Source: Desertivirga arenae (GTDB lineage Bacteria > Bacteroidota > Bacteroidia > Sphingobacteriales > Sphingobacteriaceae). Taken from it: a DNA stretch of 64,000 nucleotides. Of the stretch, positions 12,003 through 25,468 are shown one piece after another. The notes beneath the pieces are model-generated. The model ran no database searches, was not told the DNA's origin, and saw only the letters and a program-made list of their open reading frames with translations. The first letter of the stretch is position 1; each line of letters starts with the position of its first letter. The stretch lies in NCBI RefSeq assembly GCF_017355785.1, contig NZ_JAFEWE010000021.1, positions 1 through 64,000 of the forward strand, given 5' to 3'. Both the position numbers and the translations under genes were made by a program.

Positions 12003-12442
12003 GAATAGTTTGCTTGAATTCTAACGGGTATAAATACTTGATGTTTTAAGTATTTTTACTATTTCATATTGTATTTCTACTCGAATTTTAGATGTCACTT
12101 ATAATAATTACTTATTTAAAAACAATTTAAAGACGAAATGGTTACTGTTTTCTAGTCACGGAAGAGTGGCACTAATGGTGATTTTATGAAAGAAGGGGAA
12201 GTCTTAGAGAAGTTTTGTGTTCAACATTAAAAGCGACTACATGAGGAATTTTTACTCTTACCACTAAAATTAGCCCGCATGAGTTTAAGCGGGATGTTCT
12301 AAGCCTAAAGTATGATGTACAAGATAGACGCGTTGTCTGTCGTTTGTATTAAACAATTGATATAAGAATACATAAACACAGTTGTTCAACTAATTACACG
12401 TTGGATATCTGCTCAAAAACTACGACTCGTATTATTTATTAT
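12003..12442. other. non-coding spacer upstream of the giant kinase
   Basis: A/T-rich. Only very short open frames (for example 14 codons from an ATG at 12187) are seen. CCCGC (12274-12278) and GCGGG (12289-12293) form a weak hairpin. The spacer must hold the promoters of the minus-strand small gene and of the kinase, but no clear TTTG/TAnnTTTG pair was found. Confidence 0.4.
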
Positions 12443-15400
12443 ATGGAACAGGAAATCTTATTAGAAGGGGAACTAAACAGCATTCCTAAGAAAAATGGAG
12501 TTAAAGAAGACTCTCTTGACCTTAAAGAGCTTTTAAACGTTCTTTCTCAGGTTAAAAACGGGAAGCTTGATGTTCGTATGCCAGTAAAACAAGCAGGGAT
12601 AAGTGGGAGGATATGTGAAGTCCTGAATGACATTATTGACATGAGTGAACAGTTTGTAACAGAGATCTGTACAGCTGAGAAGATTATTGGTAAGAAAGGC
12701 AATTTATCGAAACGGGTTGAAATGCCTGATGCACGCGGTCAGTGGGCTGTCGGTGTTAAGTCTTTAAATGGCTTAATAACTGACCTTACCTATCCTACCC
12801 TTGAAATAGCTGGCATGATTAATTCAGTGGCAAATGGTAACCTTTCAAGACAAATTCCTTTAGAAATAAATGGTCAGCCATTAAAGGGTGAGTTCCTCCG
12901 TATAGCAAAAGAATCTAATCAAATGCTCGAGCAGCTTCGACTTTTTACTATGGAGGTAACACGAGTTGCACGTCAGGTAGGAGCTGAAGGTAAGTTGGGG
13001 GAACAGGCAAAAATTAAAGGCGTTGCAGGTGTATGGGCGGAGTTGACAGACTCCGTGAATCTTATGGCTGGTAACCTTACTGCTCAAGTGCGTAATATTG
13101 CTGCTGTAACAACAGCAGTAGCGAAAGGTGACCTTACCCGTAAGATTACAGTAGAGGCAAAAGGAGAAATTCTTGAGCTTAAGAACACGATCAATACGAT
13201 GGTGGATCAGCTGAACTCCTTTTCGTCGGAGGTAACACGTGTGGCGCTCGAGGTAGGTACGGAAGGTAAGTTGGGTGGACAAGCGAAAGTACCGGGAGTT
13301 GCGGGAACCTGGAAAGACTTAACAGACTCAGTAAACCGTATGGCTGGTAACCTTACATCTCAGGTTCGTAACATTGCAGGTGTAACTACAGCGGTTGCTA
13401 ATGGTGACTTATCCAAGAAGATCACCGTGGACGTAAAAGGGGAAATGTTGGAGCTGAAGAAAACCATTAATACCATGGTGGATCAGCTGAACTCCTTCGC
13501 ATCAGAAGTAACGCGTGTGGCACTTGAGGTAGGTACAGAGGGAAAACTGGGAGGTCAGGCGAAAGTAAAAGGTGTCGGCGGGGTTTGGAAGGATCTGACA
13601 GACTCCGTAAACCAGATGGGATCTAACCTTACCGACCAGGTACGTAATATTGCGGATGTAACCACGGCGGTAGCGAAAGGAGATCTTTCCCGTAAAATCA
13701 CAGTAGATGCAAAAGGTGAGCTCTTAGAGCTAAAAAATACGATCAACACGATGGTGGATCAGCTGAACTCCTTCTCTTCCGAGGTAACTCGTGTGGCGAG
13801 AGAGGTAGGTACAGAAGGAAAGTTGGGTGGACAAGCAAACGTACCGGGTGTCGGAGGAACCTGGAAAGACTTAACAGACTCCGTAAACCAGATGGCTGGT
13901 AACCTGACAGGTCAGGTGCGGAATATTGCCGAGGTAACAACAGCGGTAGCAAAGGGTGACCTTTCCAAGAAGATTACGGTAGACGTAAAAGGGGAAATGC
14001 TCGAGCTGAAAGTGACCATTAATACGATGGTGGATCAGTTGAACTCCTTTGGTTCTGAGGTAACTCGTGTGGCACGTGAGGTAGGTTCTGAAGGTAAACT
14101 GGGTGGTCAGGCAAACGTACCGGGTGTAGGTGGTACCTGGAAAGACTTAACAGACTCCGTAAATAAAATGGCCGATAACTTAACGTCGCAGGTACGTAAC
14201 ATTGCCGAGGTAACTACAGCGGTGGCAAAAGGTGACCTTTCCCGCAAAATTACAGTAAATGCAAAAGGAGAGCTCCTTGAGCTTAAAAATACAATCAATA
14301 CAATGGTGGATCAGCTCCGTGGTTTCGCATCCGAGGTAACTCGTGTGGCCCGTGAGGTAGGTTCAGAAGGCCAGCTGGGAGGTCAGGCCAACGTACCGGG
14401 GGTAGATGGAACGTGGAAAGACTTAACGGACTCCGTAAATAAAATGGCGGGTAACCTTACTGCACAGCTTCGTAACATTGCGGATGTATCCATCGCGGTA
14501 GCGAATGGCGACTTGTCCAAAAAAATTACAGTTGACGTACGAGGCGAGATCCTTCAGCTTAAAGAAACTATCAATACGATGGTGGATCAGCTCCGTGGTT
14601 TCGCATCCGAGGTAACACGTGTGGCCCGGGAGGTGGGTACCGACGGTAACTTGGGAGGTCAGGCATTCGTGCCTGGGGTAGCAGGTACCTGGAAAGACTT
14701 AACGGACTCTGTAAACCAGATGTCGTCCAACTTAACATCCCAGGTACGTAACATTGCTGAGGTAACAAAAGCGGTAGCATCCGGAGACTTAAGTAAAACG
14801 GTAATCATTGATGCGAAAGGTGAGGTATTGGAGCTAAAGAATACTATCAATACGATGGTGGATCAGCTGAACTCCTTTGCATCTGAGGTAACACGTGTAG
14901 CTCGTGAGGTAGGTACGGAAGGTAAACTGGGTGGTCAGGCACACGTAAAAGGGGTTGCCGGTACGTGGAAAGACTTAACGGACTCGGTGAACCAAATGGC
15001 TTCCAACTTAACGGTACAGATTCGTGGTATTGCGAAGGTGGCAACATCGGTAGCGAAAGGTAACCTGAAACAACGTCTATCCATCAACGCGATGGGTGAG
15101 GTAGCACAGCTGACCGACGCTATCAATGAGATGATTGATACACTAGCCGTATTTGCCGATCAGGTAACAACGGTGGCCCGTGAGGTGGGTGTGGAAGGTC
15201 GATTAGGTGGTCAGGCGAGTGTACCGGGAGCATCAGGAACCTGGAAAGACTTAACAGAAAACGTAAACCAGCTGGCACAAAACTTAACTGTTCAGGTGCG
15301 TTCAATCTCTGAGGTAGCATCTGCAGTAACAAAGGGTGACTTAACCCGGACAATCCGTGTAGAAGCAAAAGGAGAGCTGGAAGCATTAAAAGATACCATT

Positions 15401-18157
15401 AACCAGATGATTGCCAATCTTAAAGGAACAACCTTGAGGAACCATGAGCAAGACTGGCTGAAATCCAACTTAGCGAAGTTCACGCAGATGCTTCAAGGGC
15501 AGCGTGACCGGAACGCAGTAGCAAATAAAGTACTATCTGAACTTGCTGAACTGGTAAATGCCCGCTACGGAGCATTCTACATTTTAGAACAGCCGGAAGC
15601 TTCAGATGCCATGCTCAAAATGTTTGCTGCTTATGCGCATGATAATAAACGTACACTAAGCGAATCATTCTCTATTAATGAAGGGCTCGTTGGTCAATGT
15701 GCTTTAGATAAAGAAAGGATCTTATTAACGAATGTGCCGGGAGACTATCTGCAGATCAATTCAGGCATTGGAAGTGCAACACCTTCTGCCCTGGTTATCC
15801 TTCCGGTATTGTTCGAAAACAATATCAAAGCAGTAATTGAACTAGCGTCATTCGAAACATTTAGTCCAACCCACTTAGACTTCCTCGACCAGTTAACTGA
15901 GTCTATTGGTATCGTACTGAATAACATTGAGACGAATACACGTACAGAGGAACTCCTTGCCCAATCTCAGTCCCTTGCAAATGAGCTGAAAGCACAGCAG
16001 GAAGAGTTGAGACGTGCTAACGACGAACTTCACGATAAAGCACAACTTCTTGAGAAACAAAAGGAAGAGGTGGAGCAGATCAACAAAGAGGTCGAAGAAG
16101 CAAGAAGATCATTAGAAGAAAAAGCCGAGCAGCTCACGCTAACCTCCAAATATAAATCCGAATTCCTTGCAAACATGTCGCACGAGTTGAGAACGCCGCT
16201 CAACAGCTTACTCATCCTTGCGCAGCAATTGTTTGAAAACCACGAAGGGAACTTAACCGAAAAACAGATCAGGTACGCTAAGACTATCCACTCTTGTGGA
16301 TACGACCTGATCCAGCTGATCAATGATATCCTTGACCTTTCTAAGATCGAGTCAGGGGTTATCTCGGCTGACATTATGCCTGTAAGCTTCCGTGAAATTG
16401 CTTCGTTTGTAGAAACTACCTTCAAACCAATTTCAGAAACTAAGAATCTTAACTTCGATATTCACATTGAAGAAGATCTTCCGGAAATTATGGAGACGGA
16501 TATTCAACGTCTTAATCAGATCCTGAAAAACCTATTATCCAATGCCTTTAAATTCACTGAAAAAGGAAGTGTTAAATTAAGTATACAGAGACCAAGTGCA
16601 TCTTTACGAAATCCGTTAACTGGAGTAGATCATGTGATTGCCTTCTCTATTGAGGATACAGGTATTGGTATATCTAAGAAAACGCAGGGAATTATCTTCG
16701 AAGCATTCCAGCAGGCAGAAGGTTCTACCAGCCGTAAGTACGGAGGTACTGGTCTTGGTCTTTCTATCTCGAAAGGTTTTGCGGAGCTCCTTGGAGGTAC
16801 TATTACTGTGGAAAGCGAGCTTGGAAAAGGCAGTGCATTTACGCTCTTCCTGCCATTAAAGTATAAAGAAGGAACAAAACAGATAGGTGATTATGCAGCA
16901 GCAGCAGCTAGTACCTATCCTGCAGTGAACAAAACGACTCCAGAAGTAACAGAGTCGATTGTTGATGATGATAAACATAATATTCATCCTGGCGATAAAG
17001 TAATCCTAGTAATTGAGGATGACATTCGCTTCACTAAGATCATGCTTGACAAAGCTCACGATTTCGGTTTGAAGGCTGTCGTAGCTGTTAATTATATTGA
17101 GATCTTTGATGCAATCCAGAACTATAATCCAATTGCGATAACGCTCGATGTCAATTTGCCGGAGTCTAATGGATGGAAAATTCTTAAACTGCTTAAGAAC
17201 GACTATAATTTGCGGCATATTCCTGTTCATTTAATTTCTGGAGAAGATAACAGAGCTCTTGCTTTAAAATATGGGGCAAAAAGTTTCCACCTGAAACCTT
17301 TATCCAATAAATCCTTAGATGAACTTCTTTCAGGTATCCTCAACTTTAGTGAGCGTAAAACGAAGAAAGTATTGCTTATCGAAGATGATAAAGAAGAGCT
17401 TCAGCGCATCTCTCAATTGTTGGAAAGCGAAAATACACAGGTTGCGACAGTAGAAAGTATGAAAGCTGGCTTGGAACAATTAAAGGAAGATCAGTTTGAT
17501 TGTATTGTTTTAGATTACAATAAGCCTGATGCGGATCAGATCGCAAACCATCTCAACATTAACCGACAGTTCCAAACTTCAATCATTCTTTATTCCGAGA
17601 AAGAAGTATCTTCTGACCAATTGATTCACTTAAAGCGCGTAGCACATAAAATGATTGTGAAGTCACAAGGAACAGAAAAACAATTATTGAATGAAGTTTC
17701 CCGAATGCTTCACCTGGACATAAAAGGCCTACCTGAAGATAAGGTTAAGCTTTTGAATGAGGTTAAAGGCGATAAGGATATACTTGATAATAAAAAAGTT
17801 CTTGTAGTAGATGATGATGTGCGTAACCTGTTTGCACTAACAGCTGCATTTGAGCGTTCTCAACTGCAGGTGATAACTGCTGAAAGTGGTCGTGAAGCTC
17901 TTGAGATACTAAATGACAATAAAGATATTGACATAGTATTAATGGATATTATGATGCCTGAAATGGATGGTTATGAAACAATTCAATGGATTCGTAAGGA
18001 GCCAAAGAATAAGCAATTGCCTATTATTGCCGTAACTGCCAAAGCAATGATTGGCGACAGGCAGAAATGTATTGCGTCCGGAGCCTCTGATTACATTACT
18101 AAGCCTGTTAAGACAGATCAGTTGTTATCTTTGATGAAGGTTTGGTTATATCAATAG
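12443..18157 (+). CDS. giant cytoplasmic hybrid histidine kinase with nine HAMP-type repeats
   Basis: A 1904-residue kinase with no membrane segment. Order: degenerate HAMP-like region (1-171); nine tandem 92-residue repeats (172-999), each with [37 protein letters not shown] and [14 protein letters not shown]; a GAF domain (about 1020-1180); coiled coil; HisKA with His1247 in [13 protein letters not shown]; an ATPase domain with NAFKFT, DTGIGI and GGTGLGLSI; three receivers (about 1519-1633, 1639-1752, 1783-1902). The third has Asp1835 in [11 protein letters not shown]; the second lacks the usual motif after its Asp. The layout resembles group III (Nik1/Os-1) HAMP-array kinases of osmotic stress, which also lack membrane segments. 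The frame opens at a TTG at 12401, but ATG 12443 fits better. The ligand is unknown. Confidence 0.93.
12956..15439 (+). repeat. nine tandem 276-bp coding repeats (HAMP array)
   Basis: Units start at 12956, 13232, 13508 and so on every 276 bp without a single length change, the ninth at 15164. Each begins with the codons for VT(R/T)VA. The DNA itself is very similar between neighbours: the segment encoding NTMVDQL and the segment around GACTTAACAGACTC recur almost unchanged. Units 8 and 9 are the most diverged, unit 1 slightly so. This suggests expansion or homogenisation by recombination. Confidence 0.95.
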
Positions 18158-21676: not shown

Positions 21677-22126
21677 ATGTATTCTGCTTTCTTAACTACA
21701 CACTCTATCATCCGCTTCGCAGTAATTATAGCAAGCGTTCTTTCAATTCTGCTTGCGTTTGCGGGTTGGTTTGGGAATAAGGAGTATACTAAAGGGAACA
21801 AGGTATTGAATCTTCTTGCTTTGATTTCAGCACACCTTCAGCTTGTTGTTGGCTTAATATTATATTTTATAAGTCCTATAGTTAATTCAGCAGAGTTTGG
21901 AGCTGCAATGAAAAATAGTTCCCTGCGTTACTGGAAAGTTGAACACATGGCAATGATGATTATTGCGATCGTACTGATTACAGTAGGCTATTCAAAATCT
22001 AAAAGAGCTTTGGCCTCTGTAGATAAACATCGTACCATCGCTATTTTTTATACCATAGCTGTAATAGTAGTACTTGCAGCGTTGGCTATGAGTGGCAGAG
22101 GAATATTCGGAATGACTGTGGCTTAG
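21677..22126 (+). CDS. conserved four-helix membrane protein
   Basis: A 149-residue protein with four hydrophobic segments, starting MYSAFLTTHSIIRFAVIIAS. Histidines lie in the first helix (residue 9), in LISAHLQLVVGL and in VEHMAMMI. The shape resembles small membrane proteins of Bacteroidota that databases sometimes label cytochrome b-like, but haem binding is not shown. It has its own upstream spacer of 170 bp. Confidence 0.7.
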   Translation: MYSAFLTTHSIIRFAVIIASVLSILLAFAGWFGNKEYTKGNKVLNLLALISAHLQLVVGLILYFISPIVNSAEFGAAMKNSSLRYWKVEHMAMMIIAIVLITVGYSKSKRALASVDKHRTIAIFYTIAVIVVLAALAMSGRGIFGMTVA

Positions 22127-22175: not shown

Positions 22176-22215
22176 TTTGACAAAAAATTTGCTAATTAAA
22201 AAATCTTTACATTTT
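22176..22215 (+). promoter_or_regulatory. candidate promoter of the trp leader
   Basis: TTTG at 22188-22191 (another at 22176) lies 16 bases before TACATTTT at 22208-22215, a near match to TAnnTTTG, about 10 bases before the leader-peptide ATG. The match is imperfect. Confidence 0.3.
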
Positions 22216-22224
22216 TTTGTATTC

Positions 22225-22284
22225 ATGATGAACGCATTACATACTCAAAACTGGTGGTGGCAAAAAAGTATTTGCGCCGGATAA
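22225..22284 (+). CDS. trpL: trp leader peptide with three tandem Trp codons
   Basis: Nineteen codons, MMNALHTQNWWWQKSICAG, then TAA. The three consecutive TGG codons (22252-22260) lie 70-80 bases before a rho-independent terminator and 185 bp before trpE. By the classical mechanism, low tryptophan makes the ribosome stall at these codons and leaves the segment GCGCCGG (22274-22280) free to pair with the terminator's left arm. When tryptophan is plentiful the ribosome covers that segment and the terminator forms. The peptide is too short to be found by ordinary gene callers. Confidence 0.85.
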   Translation: MMNALHTQNWWWQKSICAG

Positions 22285-22331
22285 GGTATGTTTAATAGAG
22301 ATATCAAGTAAAAGATCTTAATAAATATAAC

Positions 22332-22360
22332 AACCCGACGCTAACAACGTCGGGTTTTTT
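22332..22360 (+). terminator. trp attenuator terminator
   Basis: AACCCGACG (22332-22340) and CGTCGGGTT (22348-22356) form a perfect nine-base stem with a 7-base loop, followed by T4. It is between the leader peptide and trpE, not after a gene. The left arm CCGACGC (22335-22341) can instead pair with GCGCCGG (22274-22280) with a single mismatch, giving an antiterminator. Confidence 0.85.
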
Positions 22361-22445
22361 ATTTATCCCTATTAAACACTGTAACCAAAAGAATAAGATT
22401 TAGTAATAACAGTGACTTAAGTATAATCTTAACTCTTAAGTCTCA

Positions 22446-23888
22446 ATGCAACCAAAAATGAAGTATATTTTAAATACTACCTATAAAAAACTTCTTGCAG
22501 ACACCACCACCCCTGTAGCTATATATCTGCGTTTAAGAGATGTTTTTCCTAACAGCATATTACTCGAAAGTTCAGACTATCACAGCCGTGAAAATAGTAT
22601 GAGTTACGTTTGCTGTGACCCTATCGGGGGAATACTTTTGGATAAGAATTCTTTAATAACCTACTTTCCAGATGGCAGGAAAAATGAAAAATCATCAGAG
22701 GGGATTAATCTTCAGGAAGAGGTTACCGCTTTTAGAAGTAGTTTTGAATCTAATTTAAAAGATAGCTTCAAATATATCTCAAGTGGCTTGTTCGGATATT
22801 TTGCTTATGAAACTATTGAATTCTTTGAAGATATAACGCTTACAACTGAACGAAAGGGAGAGCGTGATATACCTTTGTTACAATACCATCTGTACCGGTA
22901 TGTTATTGCAATCGACCACTTTAAGAATGAGATGTACCTTTTCGAATCCAGGGCTTCAGAAGCAGAGCCTTCGGGGTTAGAAAGAATTCAATACTTAATT
23001 CAGAATAAGAATTTCCCAGAATATCCGTTTGAGACATCGGGTGACGAGACATCAAACTTCAGTGATGAGGGTTTCGTTGAAGTAGTTAATAAAATGAAGC
23101 AACATATCTTCAGAGGAGACGTTTTTCAGATAGTTCCTTCCAGAGCGTTTGCAAAACCATTCCAGGGAGATGAGTTTAATGTTTACCGAGCCTTAAGGTC
23201 TATAAATCCATCGCCTTACTTATTTTATTTTGATTACGGAAATTTTAAGCTTTTTGGATCTTCTCCTGAAGCACAGCTTACTATTAAAAACGGAGAGGCC
23301 TCCATCTATCCTATCGCCGGAACTTTTCGCCGTACGGGAAATGATGTATTAGATGCAGAGTTGGCAAAAAAACTAGAGAACGATCCCAAGGAGGTTGCCG
23401 AGCATGTAATGCTGGTAGATCTCGCTCGTAACGATCTCAGCAGACATTGTAATAATGTTAAAGTCAGGGCATTTAAAGAAGTACAATATTACTCGCATTT
23501 GATCCATCTGGTTTCAAAAGTTACTGGAAGCTTACAGGAAAAAGCTCATCCTTTTTATGTTGTGGGCGATACTTTCCCTGCAGGAACTCTTAGTGGAGCG
23601 CCAAAGTACATGGCTATGACTTTAATAGACCGATATGAAAACGGTCCAAGAGGATTTTACAGTGGAGCAATTGGTTATATGGGCTTTAATGGCGATTTTA
23701 ATCATGCAATTATGATTCGTTCATTCATGAGCCGGAATAATGTCCTTCACTATCAGGCTGGGGCGGGTATTGTAGCAGATTCTGATCCTCAAAGTGAACT
23801 TAATGAGGTTAATACAAAAGTAGGTGCTTTGCGCAAGGCTTTAGAGCTAGCTGGTTCTATCGTAGCACAGGTGGAAAAGCCCGCCTAA
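22446..23888 (+). CDS. trpE: anthranilate synthase component I
   Basis: A 480-residue enzyme that converts chorismate and ammonia (from TrpG) to anthranilate, the first step of tryptophan synthesis. The chorismate-binding core is clear: FGSSPEAQLT, YPIAGTFRRTG, LVDLARNDLSR and FPAGTLSGAPK. The N-terminal LLES motif (ILLESSDYHS, near residue 34) is the tryptophan feedback site of this family, so the enzyme should also be inhibited by tryptophan. It is under the attenuator just upstream. ATG 22446 is used; ATG 22458 is an alternative. Confidence 0.96.
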   Translation: MQPKMKYILNTTYKKLLADTTTPVAIYLRLRDVFPNSILLESSDYHSRENSMSYVCCDPIGGILLDKNSLITYFPDGRKNEKSSEGINLQEEVTAFRSSFESNLKDSFKYISSGLFGYFAYETIEFFEDITLTTERKGERDIPLLQYHLYRYVIAIDHFKNEMYLFESRASEAEPSGLERIQYLIQNKNFPEYPFETSGDETSNFSDEGFVEVVNKMKQHIFRGDVFQIVPSRAFAKPFQGDEFNVYRALRSINPSPYLFYFDYGNFKLFGSSPEAQLTIKNGEASIYPIAGTFRRTGNDVLDAELAKKLENDPKEVAEHVMLVDLARNDLSRHCNNVKVRAFKEVQYYSHLIHLVSKVTGSLQEKAHPFYVVGDTFPAGTLSGAPKYMAMTLIDRYENGPRGFYSGAIGYMGFNGDFNHAIMIRSFMSRNNVLHYQAGAGIVADSDPQSELNEVNTKVGALRKALELAGSIVAQVEKPA

Positions 23889-23955: not shown

Positions 23956-24528
23956 ATGAAGATATTAGTTGTTGATAATTACGACTCCTTTACGTTCAAT
24001 CTTGTTCATTTACTGCATGAGTGTGGCCATGAACCGACCGTTTGGAGAAATGATAAATTTGAACTTAAGGAGGTAGAACAATTTGATAAAATTCTTCTAT
24101 CACCAGGTCCCGGTATTCCTTCAGAAGCTGGATTATTGCAGGAGGTTATCAGAACCTACGCGCCAACTAAAAGTATCCTCGGCGTTTGTCTTGGGATGCA
24201 GGCAATGGGAGAGGTATTTGGAGGAAGCTTGTATAACCTATCCTACCCGGTTCATGGCAGAGCTACCGATATGCAGATTCTAGACGAAGAGGAACCTTTA
24301 TTTAAAGGTCTCCCCGGATCTTTTAAGATCGGTCGTTATCATTCATGGGCTGTTAGTCGCGAAGGCCTGCCAGAAACTGTTAAAGTCACAGCAAAAGATG
24401 CTGAAGGGGTGATCATGGCTCTGCGGCATATTGAATATGATGTAAGAGGAGTTCAGTTTCATCCCGAATCGGTGTTAACAGAACATGGGAAAGAAATGAT
24501 AGAGAACTGGTTAGTTCCTCATCCCTAA
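23956..24528 (+). CDS. trpG: anthranilate synthase component II (glutamine amidotransferase)
   Basis: A 190-residue class I glutamine amidotransferase that supplies ammonia to TrpE. The catalytic Cys78 lies in GVCLGMQAMGEVFGG, the His169-x-Glu171 pair in QFHPESVLTEHG, and the oxyanion strand in LLSPGPGIPSEAG. Closely related PabA enzymes serve folate synthesis, and many bacteria share one subunit. Position 67 bp after trpE supports the Trp role, without excluding dual use. Confidence 0.95.
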   Translation: MKILVVDNYDSFTFNLVHLLHECGHEPTVWRNDKFELKEVEQFDKILLSPGPGIPSEAGLLQEVIRTYAPTKSILGVCLGMQAMGEVFGGSLYNLSYPVHGRATDMQILDEEEPLFKGLPGSFKIGRYHSWAVSREGLPETVKVTAKDAEGVIMALRHIEYDVRGVQFHPESVLTEHGKEMIENWLVPHP

Positions 24529-24655: not shown

Positions 24656-25468
24656 ATGAGAACAATTTACAAAGGACAAGGAAATACAATACTAGATAAG
24701 ATAGTTATTCAGAAACACAAAGAAGTTGCTGAAGCCAAGGCATTAACACCAATTGTAAAGTTGGAAGAAGGTGAGCTTTTTCATCGAGAATGCTACTCAA
24801 TGCGCCAGTTTATTTTAGACCCTGAAAGGACAGGCATTATATCCGAGTTTAAAAGAGCATCTCCCTCAAAAGGGATCATTAATGATAAGGTATTTGTTGA
24901 GGATGTTACGCAAGCTTATGCCGAGGCAGGAGCCTCTGCCCTATCTATACTTACCGATCCTCACTTTTTTAAAGGAAGTAATTTCGATGTCTTAAAAGCT
25001 CGCCCTGTCAATCAAATTCCGATCCTTCGTAAGGAATTTATTGTAGATGAATTTCAGATACTTGAAGCAAAAGCAATTGGTGCTGATATTATCCTTCTGA
25101 TTGCGGCTATCTTAACTCCTGAAGAGGTAACCCGATTTGCAAGGCTTGCAAAGAGTGTGGGATTAAGCGTACTTATGGAAGTGCATAATCAGGAAGAACT
25201 AGATGCATGTCTTTGCGACGAACTAGATGCTGTAGGTGTTAATAACCGAAATCTTGCAGATTTTAGTGTTTCATTAGATCATTCGTACAATCTGGTTAAT
25301 CAGATTCCTGATACTTTTCTAAAAATCTCTGAAAGTGGTATTAGTAATCCAAATACAATCAACGATTTAAGGAAAGCAGGCTTCAACGGTTTTTTGATTG
25401 GCGAGAACTTTATGAAGGAGCAAGATCCAGGAAAAGCGATAAAAGAATTTGTAGCGCAGCTCAGTTAA
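24656..25468 (+). CDS. trpC: indole-3-glycerol phosphate synthase
   Basis: A 270-residue TIM-barrel enzyme that closes the indole ring from CdRP. Conserved segments: ILDKIVIQKHKEV, ISEFKRASPSKGII (with catalytic Lys), SILTDPHFFKGS, PILRKEFIVDEFQI (catalytic Lys and Glu), LMEVHNQEEL, GVNNRNL and ISESGIS. The ATG start gives an extra ten residues before the conserved region; no closer ATG exists. trpD, trpF, trpB and trpA are not in the window; hflX follows after 52 bp. Confidence 0.95.
   Translation: MRTIYKGQGNTILDKIVIQKHKEVAEAKALTPIVKLEEGELFHRECYSMRQFILDPERTGIISEFKRASPSKGIINDKVFVEDVTQAYAEAGASALSILTDPHFFKGSNFDVLKARPVNQIPILRKEFIVDEFQILEAKAIGADIILLIAAILTPEEVTRFARLAKSVGLSVLMEVHNQEELDACLCDELDAVGVNNRNLADFSVSLDHSYNLVNQIPDTFLKISESGISNPNTINDLRKAGFNGFLIGENFMKEQDPGKAIKEFVAQLS

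Follow-up and report, generated by a model that had tools for sequence, protein, structure and literature searches.

Attenuators were reportedly predicted in some Bacteroidetes/Chlorobi by Vitreschak and co-workers in 2004. The Rfam family RF01692, 'Bacteroid-trp', represents a cis-regulatory leader RNA of Bacteroidetes with a tryptophan peptide (Weinberg et al. 2010, PMC2864571), and a 2019 paper (PMC6414381) reported Bacteroid-trp to be conserved 5' of the Flavobacterium psychrophilum trp operon, compared it with the leader of E. coli, and independently inferred for the Bacteroid-trp RNA of Flavobacterium the same mechanism as is considered here. Leader-peptide attenuation was likewise inferred in Flavobacterium psychrophilum in PMC9723704, whose main text offers neither trp detail nor a cross-phylum comparison.

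The window, that is, the whole stretch of 64,000 nucleotides from Desertivirga arenae (Sphingobacteriaceae) that was analysed, harbors a trp operon with the gene order trpE-trpG-trpC, followed by hflX, all features discussed for this locus being on the forward strand. These genes encode anthranilate synthase component I (trpE, 22446-23888; TIGR00564 is the best match, E 2e-124, below its curated cut-off; an alternative in-frame ATG is possible at 22461), anthranilate synthase component II (trpG, 23956-24528; TIGR00566, 177.6 bits, above cut-off) and indole-3-glycerol phosphate synthase (trpC, 24656-25468; NF001377, 288.5 bits, above cut-off). Among named relatives, Pedobacter sp. SYSU D00535 and Desertivirga xinjiangensis are the closest by TrpE. 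Elsewhere in the window, a 1918-aa ORF (12401-18157) looks like a hybrid sensor kinase that contains numerous almost identical repeat blocks, and more kinase and response-regulator ORFs lie 3' of it.

The region before trpE contains a leader peptide ORF of 19 codons, MMNALHTQNWWWQKSICAG (22225-22284; ATG at 22225, stop codon TAA at 22282-22284), with three tandem Trp codons (TGG, 22252-22260) as the sensor, and a 9-bp intrinsic terminator (22332-22360; arms 22332-22340 and 22348-22356, with a run of six T at 22355-22360), so that, as in amino-acid attenuators, a leader ORF in which codons for the product of the pathway are clustered is followed by an intrinsic terminator placed before the first structural gene. 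Segment 2a, GCGCCGG (22274-22280), lies inside the leader ORF and is able to pair with segment 3, CCGACGC (22335-22341), which is common to the antiterminator and the terminator. The earlier note had described the ORF, the Trp codons, GCGCCGG, the stop codon, the terminator and trpE, and all of these were found in place; the one mismatch that it had allowed between GCGCCGG and the left arm of the terminator is a C-A mismatch, and helix 2a is weak alone. The present analysis adds to that note a second antiterminator helix, a 1:2 hairpin, an attenuator before trpD and the prior description of attenuators of this kind. The second helix is formed by segment 2b, TATGTTTA (22287-22294), and segment 3b, TAAATATA (22322-22329), and is also backed by a relative (L002). 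The 1:2, or protector, hairpin pairs ACATACT (22239-22245) with GGTATGT (22285-22291), the latter overlapping segment 2b; it is present in the free fold of the window and recurs with altered letters in near relatives. Across the phylum, 1:2 pairing gave no signal above shuffles (median z -0.07), and the protector hairpin is therefore claimed only for the window and its near relatives.

Differential relationships were observed between this leader and the database models. Like RF01692, it encodes a Trp leader peptide 5' of Bacteroidota trp genes, and like E. coli trpL (RF00513) it has tandem Trp codons, alternative 2:3 and 3:4 stems and a terminator before trpE. It differs from trpL in that the sequence is unrelated (16.5 bits, E 0.86, against the RF00513 cut-off of 41 bits), segment 2 lies within the leader ORF, the ORF is predicted to start near the 5' end of the RNA, and a Shine-Dalgarno sequence is not expected in Bacteroidota. 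RF01692 (cut-off 49 bits) gave no match to the window at the gathering score or at E up to 5, none in the same genome at E up to 1 under stricter filters, and at the gathering score none at 23 Sphingobacteriaceae trpE loci or at the scanned loci of other families, whereas it matched all eight trpE leaders scanned from family f4 and some Sphingobacteriaceae trpD leaders; in some relatives it recognises the trpD leader but not the trpE leader. The 'trpB motif' RF04312, a motif of Firmicutes/Fusobacteria (PMC11109978), was rejected as the identity of the element at 17.8 bits against a cut-off of 59. The leader resembles Bacteroid-trp and E. coli trpL in its place and its probable mechanism; the curated RF01692 score is not reached, and the window is best regarded as an unrecognised member of this functional class and, by that score, not a member of RF01692.

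The upstream regions of trpE were surveyed at 192 Bacteroidota loci (80 named relatives, 3 genomes of the same genus and 109 phylum-wide loci), of which the named relatives were chosen by closeness, so that the rows are not independent, and a few genomes are present twice (e.g., L002/L004, L003/L005 and L017/L084). A short ORF with WWW was found before trpE at 127 of the 192 loci, in the majority of the sampled families, and a W-(x)-W leader ORF at 52, giving 179/192 together. Dinucleotide-preserving shuffles yielded WWW in 0/3840 cases (3.9% for W-(x)-W), and the reverse strands of the surveyed regions yielded no WWW. Among the 13 loci with neither pattern, four, from families f11 and f12, have upstream sequence resembling the end of trpB, and trpE is therefore probably not the first gene there. 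An intrinsic terminator lies 3' of 178/179 leaders (median -17.7 kcal/mol), and its left arm begins 46-94 nt past the last Trp codon in 172/178, the spacing being steady while most other letters vary.

Pairing between the sequence 3' of the Trp codons and the 5' arm of the terminator has a median z of -2.1 relative to shuffles of that sequence (173 loci; p ≤ 0.05 in 59%) and is better than shuffles in most families; when terminators of other families are substituted for comparison, the own arm has a median rank at the 8th percentile. For the window alone the own arm reaches only the 24th percentile against swapped arms, so that its 2:3 pairing is unremarkable and, taken alone, is not counted as evidence. 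What exceeds chance is the comparative evidence. Within Sphingobacteriaceae (47 distinct rows), the pairs between segments 2 and 3 are standard in 82% of cells, compared with 28% and 47% for registers slid by one and with a maximum of 81.8% over 2000 permutations that ignore the relatedness of rows, the margin being small because the columns are conserved. The most variable 2:3 pair is U-A in 20 rows, C-G in 13 and C-A in 11, with the window in the C-A group. Two relatives (L057 and L060) carry GCGCAGGC/CCCTGCG/CGCAGGG where their relatives carry GCGCTGGC/CCCGGCG/CGCCGGG, a difference in which all three strands are changed and both alternative stems are preserved. A different layout was observed in families f17 and f35 and at many f4 loci, where the antiterminator partner appears to be the terminator loop plus 3' arm rather than the 5' arm of the textbook layout (e.g., L166, L167, L173 and L179; L114 and L111 in f4), with pairings such as GUCGUGA/UCACGAC and UCAGUGA/UCACUGA; the swapped-terminator comparison supports this layout for f17, not clearly for f4. 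The window, with its use of the 5' arm, differs from many members of f4, the family whose eight scanned leaders are matched by RF01692.

The two states of the ribosome, whose edges are estimates in both folds, were represented by separate transcripts. With the ribosome at the Trp codons and the right arm of the terminator unmade (22273-22347), the minimum free energy fold is the two-helix antiterminator at -13.7 kcal/mol, to which the second helix adds strength; once the ribosome has reached the stop codon (22297-22365), the fold is the terminator. This is the outcome that the earlier note had anticipated for the two alternatives, and its expectation for relatives was borne out as well, the Trp codons, the terminator and both alternative stems being kept with compensatory changes. 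In silico, antiterminator and terminator are mutually exclusive, the former being available during the stall and masked once the ribosome is at the stop codon. The completed terminator is more stable than the antiterminator, and the switch must therefore be kinetic.

The start of the RNA was approached through the -33/-7 consensus TTTG/TAnnTTTG (PMC7366714). A TAnnTTTG box with at most one mismatch ends 4-10 nt 5' of an in-frame leader ATG at 132/172 distinct loci (perfect in 105 of these 132), and a perfect -7 box lies no more than 90 nt from the Trp codons at 129/171 loci versus 6% in shuffles. From this position and the spacing in F. psychrophilum, where the -7 box lies at -12 to -5 (PMC9723704), 5' UTRs of mostly 0-6 nt are predicted. 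In the window, a candidate -7 box, TTTTTTTG (22212-22219; one mismatch to TAnnTTTG), lies 5 nt before the leader ATG, and a candidate -33 box, TTTG (22188-22191), lies 20 nt 5' of this -7 box; the motif position would place the RNA start at ~22224, with a terminated leader RNA predicted at ~137 nt. RNAs of this type are uncommon in the phylum: leaderless RNAs make up 5.5% in F. psychrophilum (PMC9723704), and 5' UTRs shorter than 10 nt make up ~3.7% in B. thetaiotaomicron (PMC7366714). The near-leaderless arrangement does not extend to all amino acids: in most his leaders of near relatives, ~30 nt separate the -7 box from the ATG.

On the basis of anatomy, conservation, covariation and folds, the trpEGC leader is very probably a classical ribosome-mediated transcription attenuator, within which we infer leader translation, stalling, the RNA start and the Trp-dependent outcome. 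A ribosome would start at the leader ATG, which is predicted to coincide with the 5' end of the RNA or to lie a few bases from it. With ample Trp-tRNA, the three Trp codons would be read and the ribosome at 22282 would cover segments 2a and 2b, whereupon the terminator would form and transcription would end before trpE. With scarce Trp-tRNA, the ribosome would stall at 22252-22260 and leave both segments free to pair with the left arm of the terminator and the bases just 5' of it ahead of synthesis of the right arm; with the antiterminator formed, RNA polymerase would continue into trpE. If the leader were not translated, segment 2 would be sequestered by the 1:2 hairpin and termination would be favoured. 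The mechanism is the one claimed in the earlier note, which conservation, covariation and the two-state folds support, while the view of such logic as unexpected in Bacteroidota is contradicted by RF01692, PMC2864571 and PMC6414381.

The hairpin before trpE might instead serve only to end transcripts of the preceding gene or to damp expression constitutively, the Trp-rich ORF being incidental; that gene (21677-22126) shares its strand with the leader, and the hairpin, taken alone, makes a good terminator, but it stands ~205 nt beyond the gene, and an incidental ORF is at odds with the phylum-wide Trp codons at a steady distance from the terminator, with the covarying antiterminator strands and with the recurrence of a Trp leader and terminator before trpD, which makes this reading highly improbable. 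Attenuation of trp genes relies on sensors of this other type in other phyla, such as TRAP in Bacillus and the T-box in Firmicutes, and a Trp-binding RNA (riboswitch) or an RNA-binding protein, not a ribosome, could be imagined to control the terminator here. What is conserved, however, is in-frame Trp codons and pairing strands rather than an aptamer-like fold, and the Rfam scan of the window found no family at the gathering score, so that we consider control of this type even less probable. Action in trans of the terminated leader RNA or of the peptide, in addition to attenuation in cis, is unlikely: a precedent is reported for peTrpL in Sinorhizobium (PMC7298713), and a terminated RNA of ~137 nt is predicted above, whereas the leader peptide, apart from its Trp codons, lacks conservation from one family to another and its conserved end follows the pairing strand.

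The remaining pathway genes lie elsewhere in the genome (trpD at G000:C23:452614 and trpB at G000:C23:454293), and ~165 nt 5' of trpD (L269) a second Trp leader, MELAFTHIIWWHSH with its stop codon, is followed by a terminator with a T-run; the split pathway is therefore under two Trp leaders, and a trpD Trp leader is also present in most of the Sphingobacteriaceae examined. Leaders rich in other amino acids were observed as well. In the same genome (G000:C16, L232), a Thr-rich leader, MIKFTYTITKTITTTHKVSGGSSYLV with its stop codon, with a segment of the GGAGGAAG type and then a terminator, lies 5' of thrA, and Ile/Leu/Val-rich ORFs precede one ilvD of this genome (L219) and ilvD in same-genus genomes (L214 and L215); the thrA and ilvD leaders are further candidate attenuators of the same kind. 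A His-rich leader precedes hisG in this genome, and the hisG upstream regions L197, L201, L202, L205 and L195 have His-rich leaders (e.g., MKHEFTHSMHFHHRQ with its stop codon), the conserved sequence TATGTTTCTACGTGAA close to or past the stop codon, and a possible small hairpin between the -7 box and the ATG (~30 nt). No clear T-run terminator was found before hisG in these five regions, and the control of hisG may be of another type.

In Sphingobacteriaceae, whose trpE leaders the Rfam model misses, these findings identify the trp control element, and in Bacteroidota they make Trp-codon leaders with terminators the rule before trpE; this breadth, the near-leaderless leader ORFs and the loop/3'-arm variant of the antiterminator may be new. 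The two attenuators of one genome, before trpEGC and trpD, form a natural pair for dissecting the switch, and the attenuator offers a ready test of transcription-translation coupling in a phylum that lacks Shine-Dalgarno sequences. There is about an even chance that the trp attenuator of Bacteroidota represents a distinct design, with a leaderless or near-leaderless, Shine-Dalgarno-less leader RNA that the first ribosome enters once the 5' end has emerged, and, in part of the phylum, with an antiterminator that captures the terminator's loop and 3' arm in place of its 5' arm; if this is true, transcription and translation would have to be functionally coupled throughout Bacteroidota.
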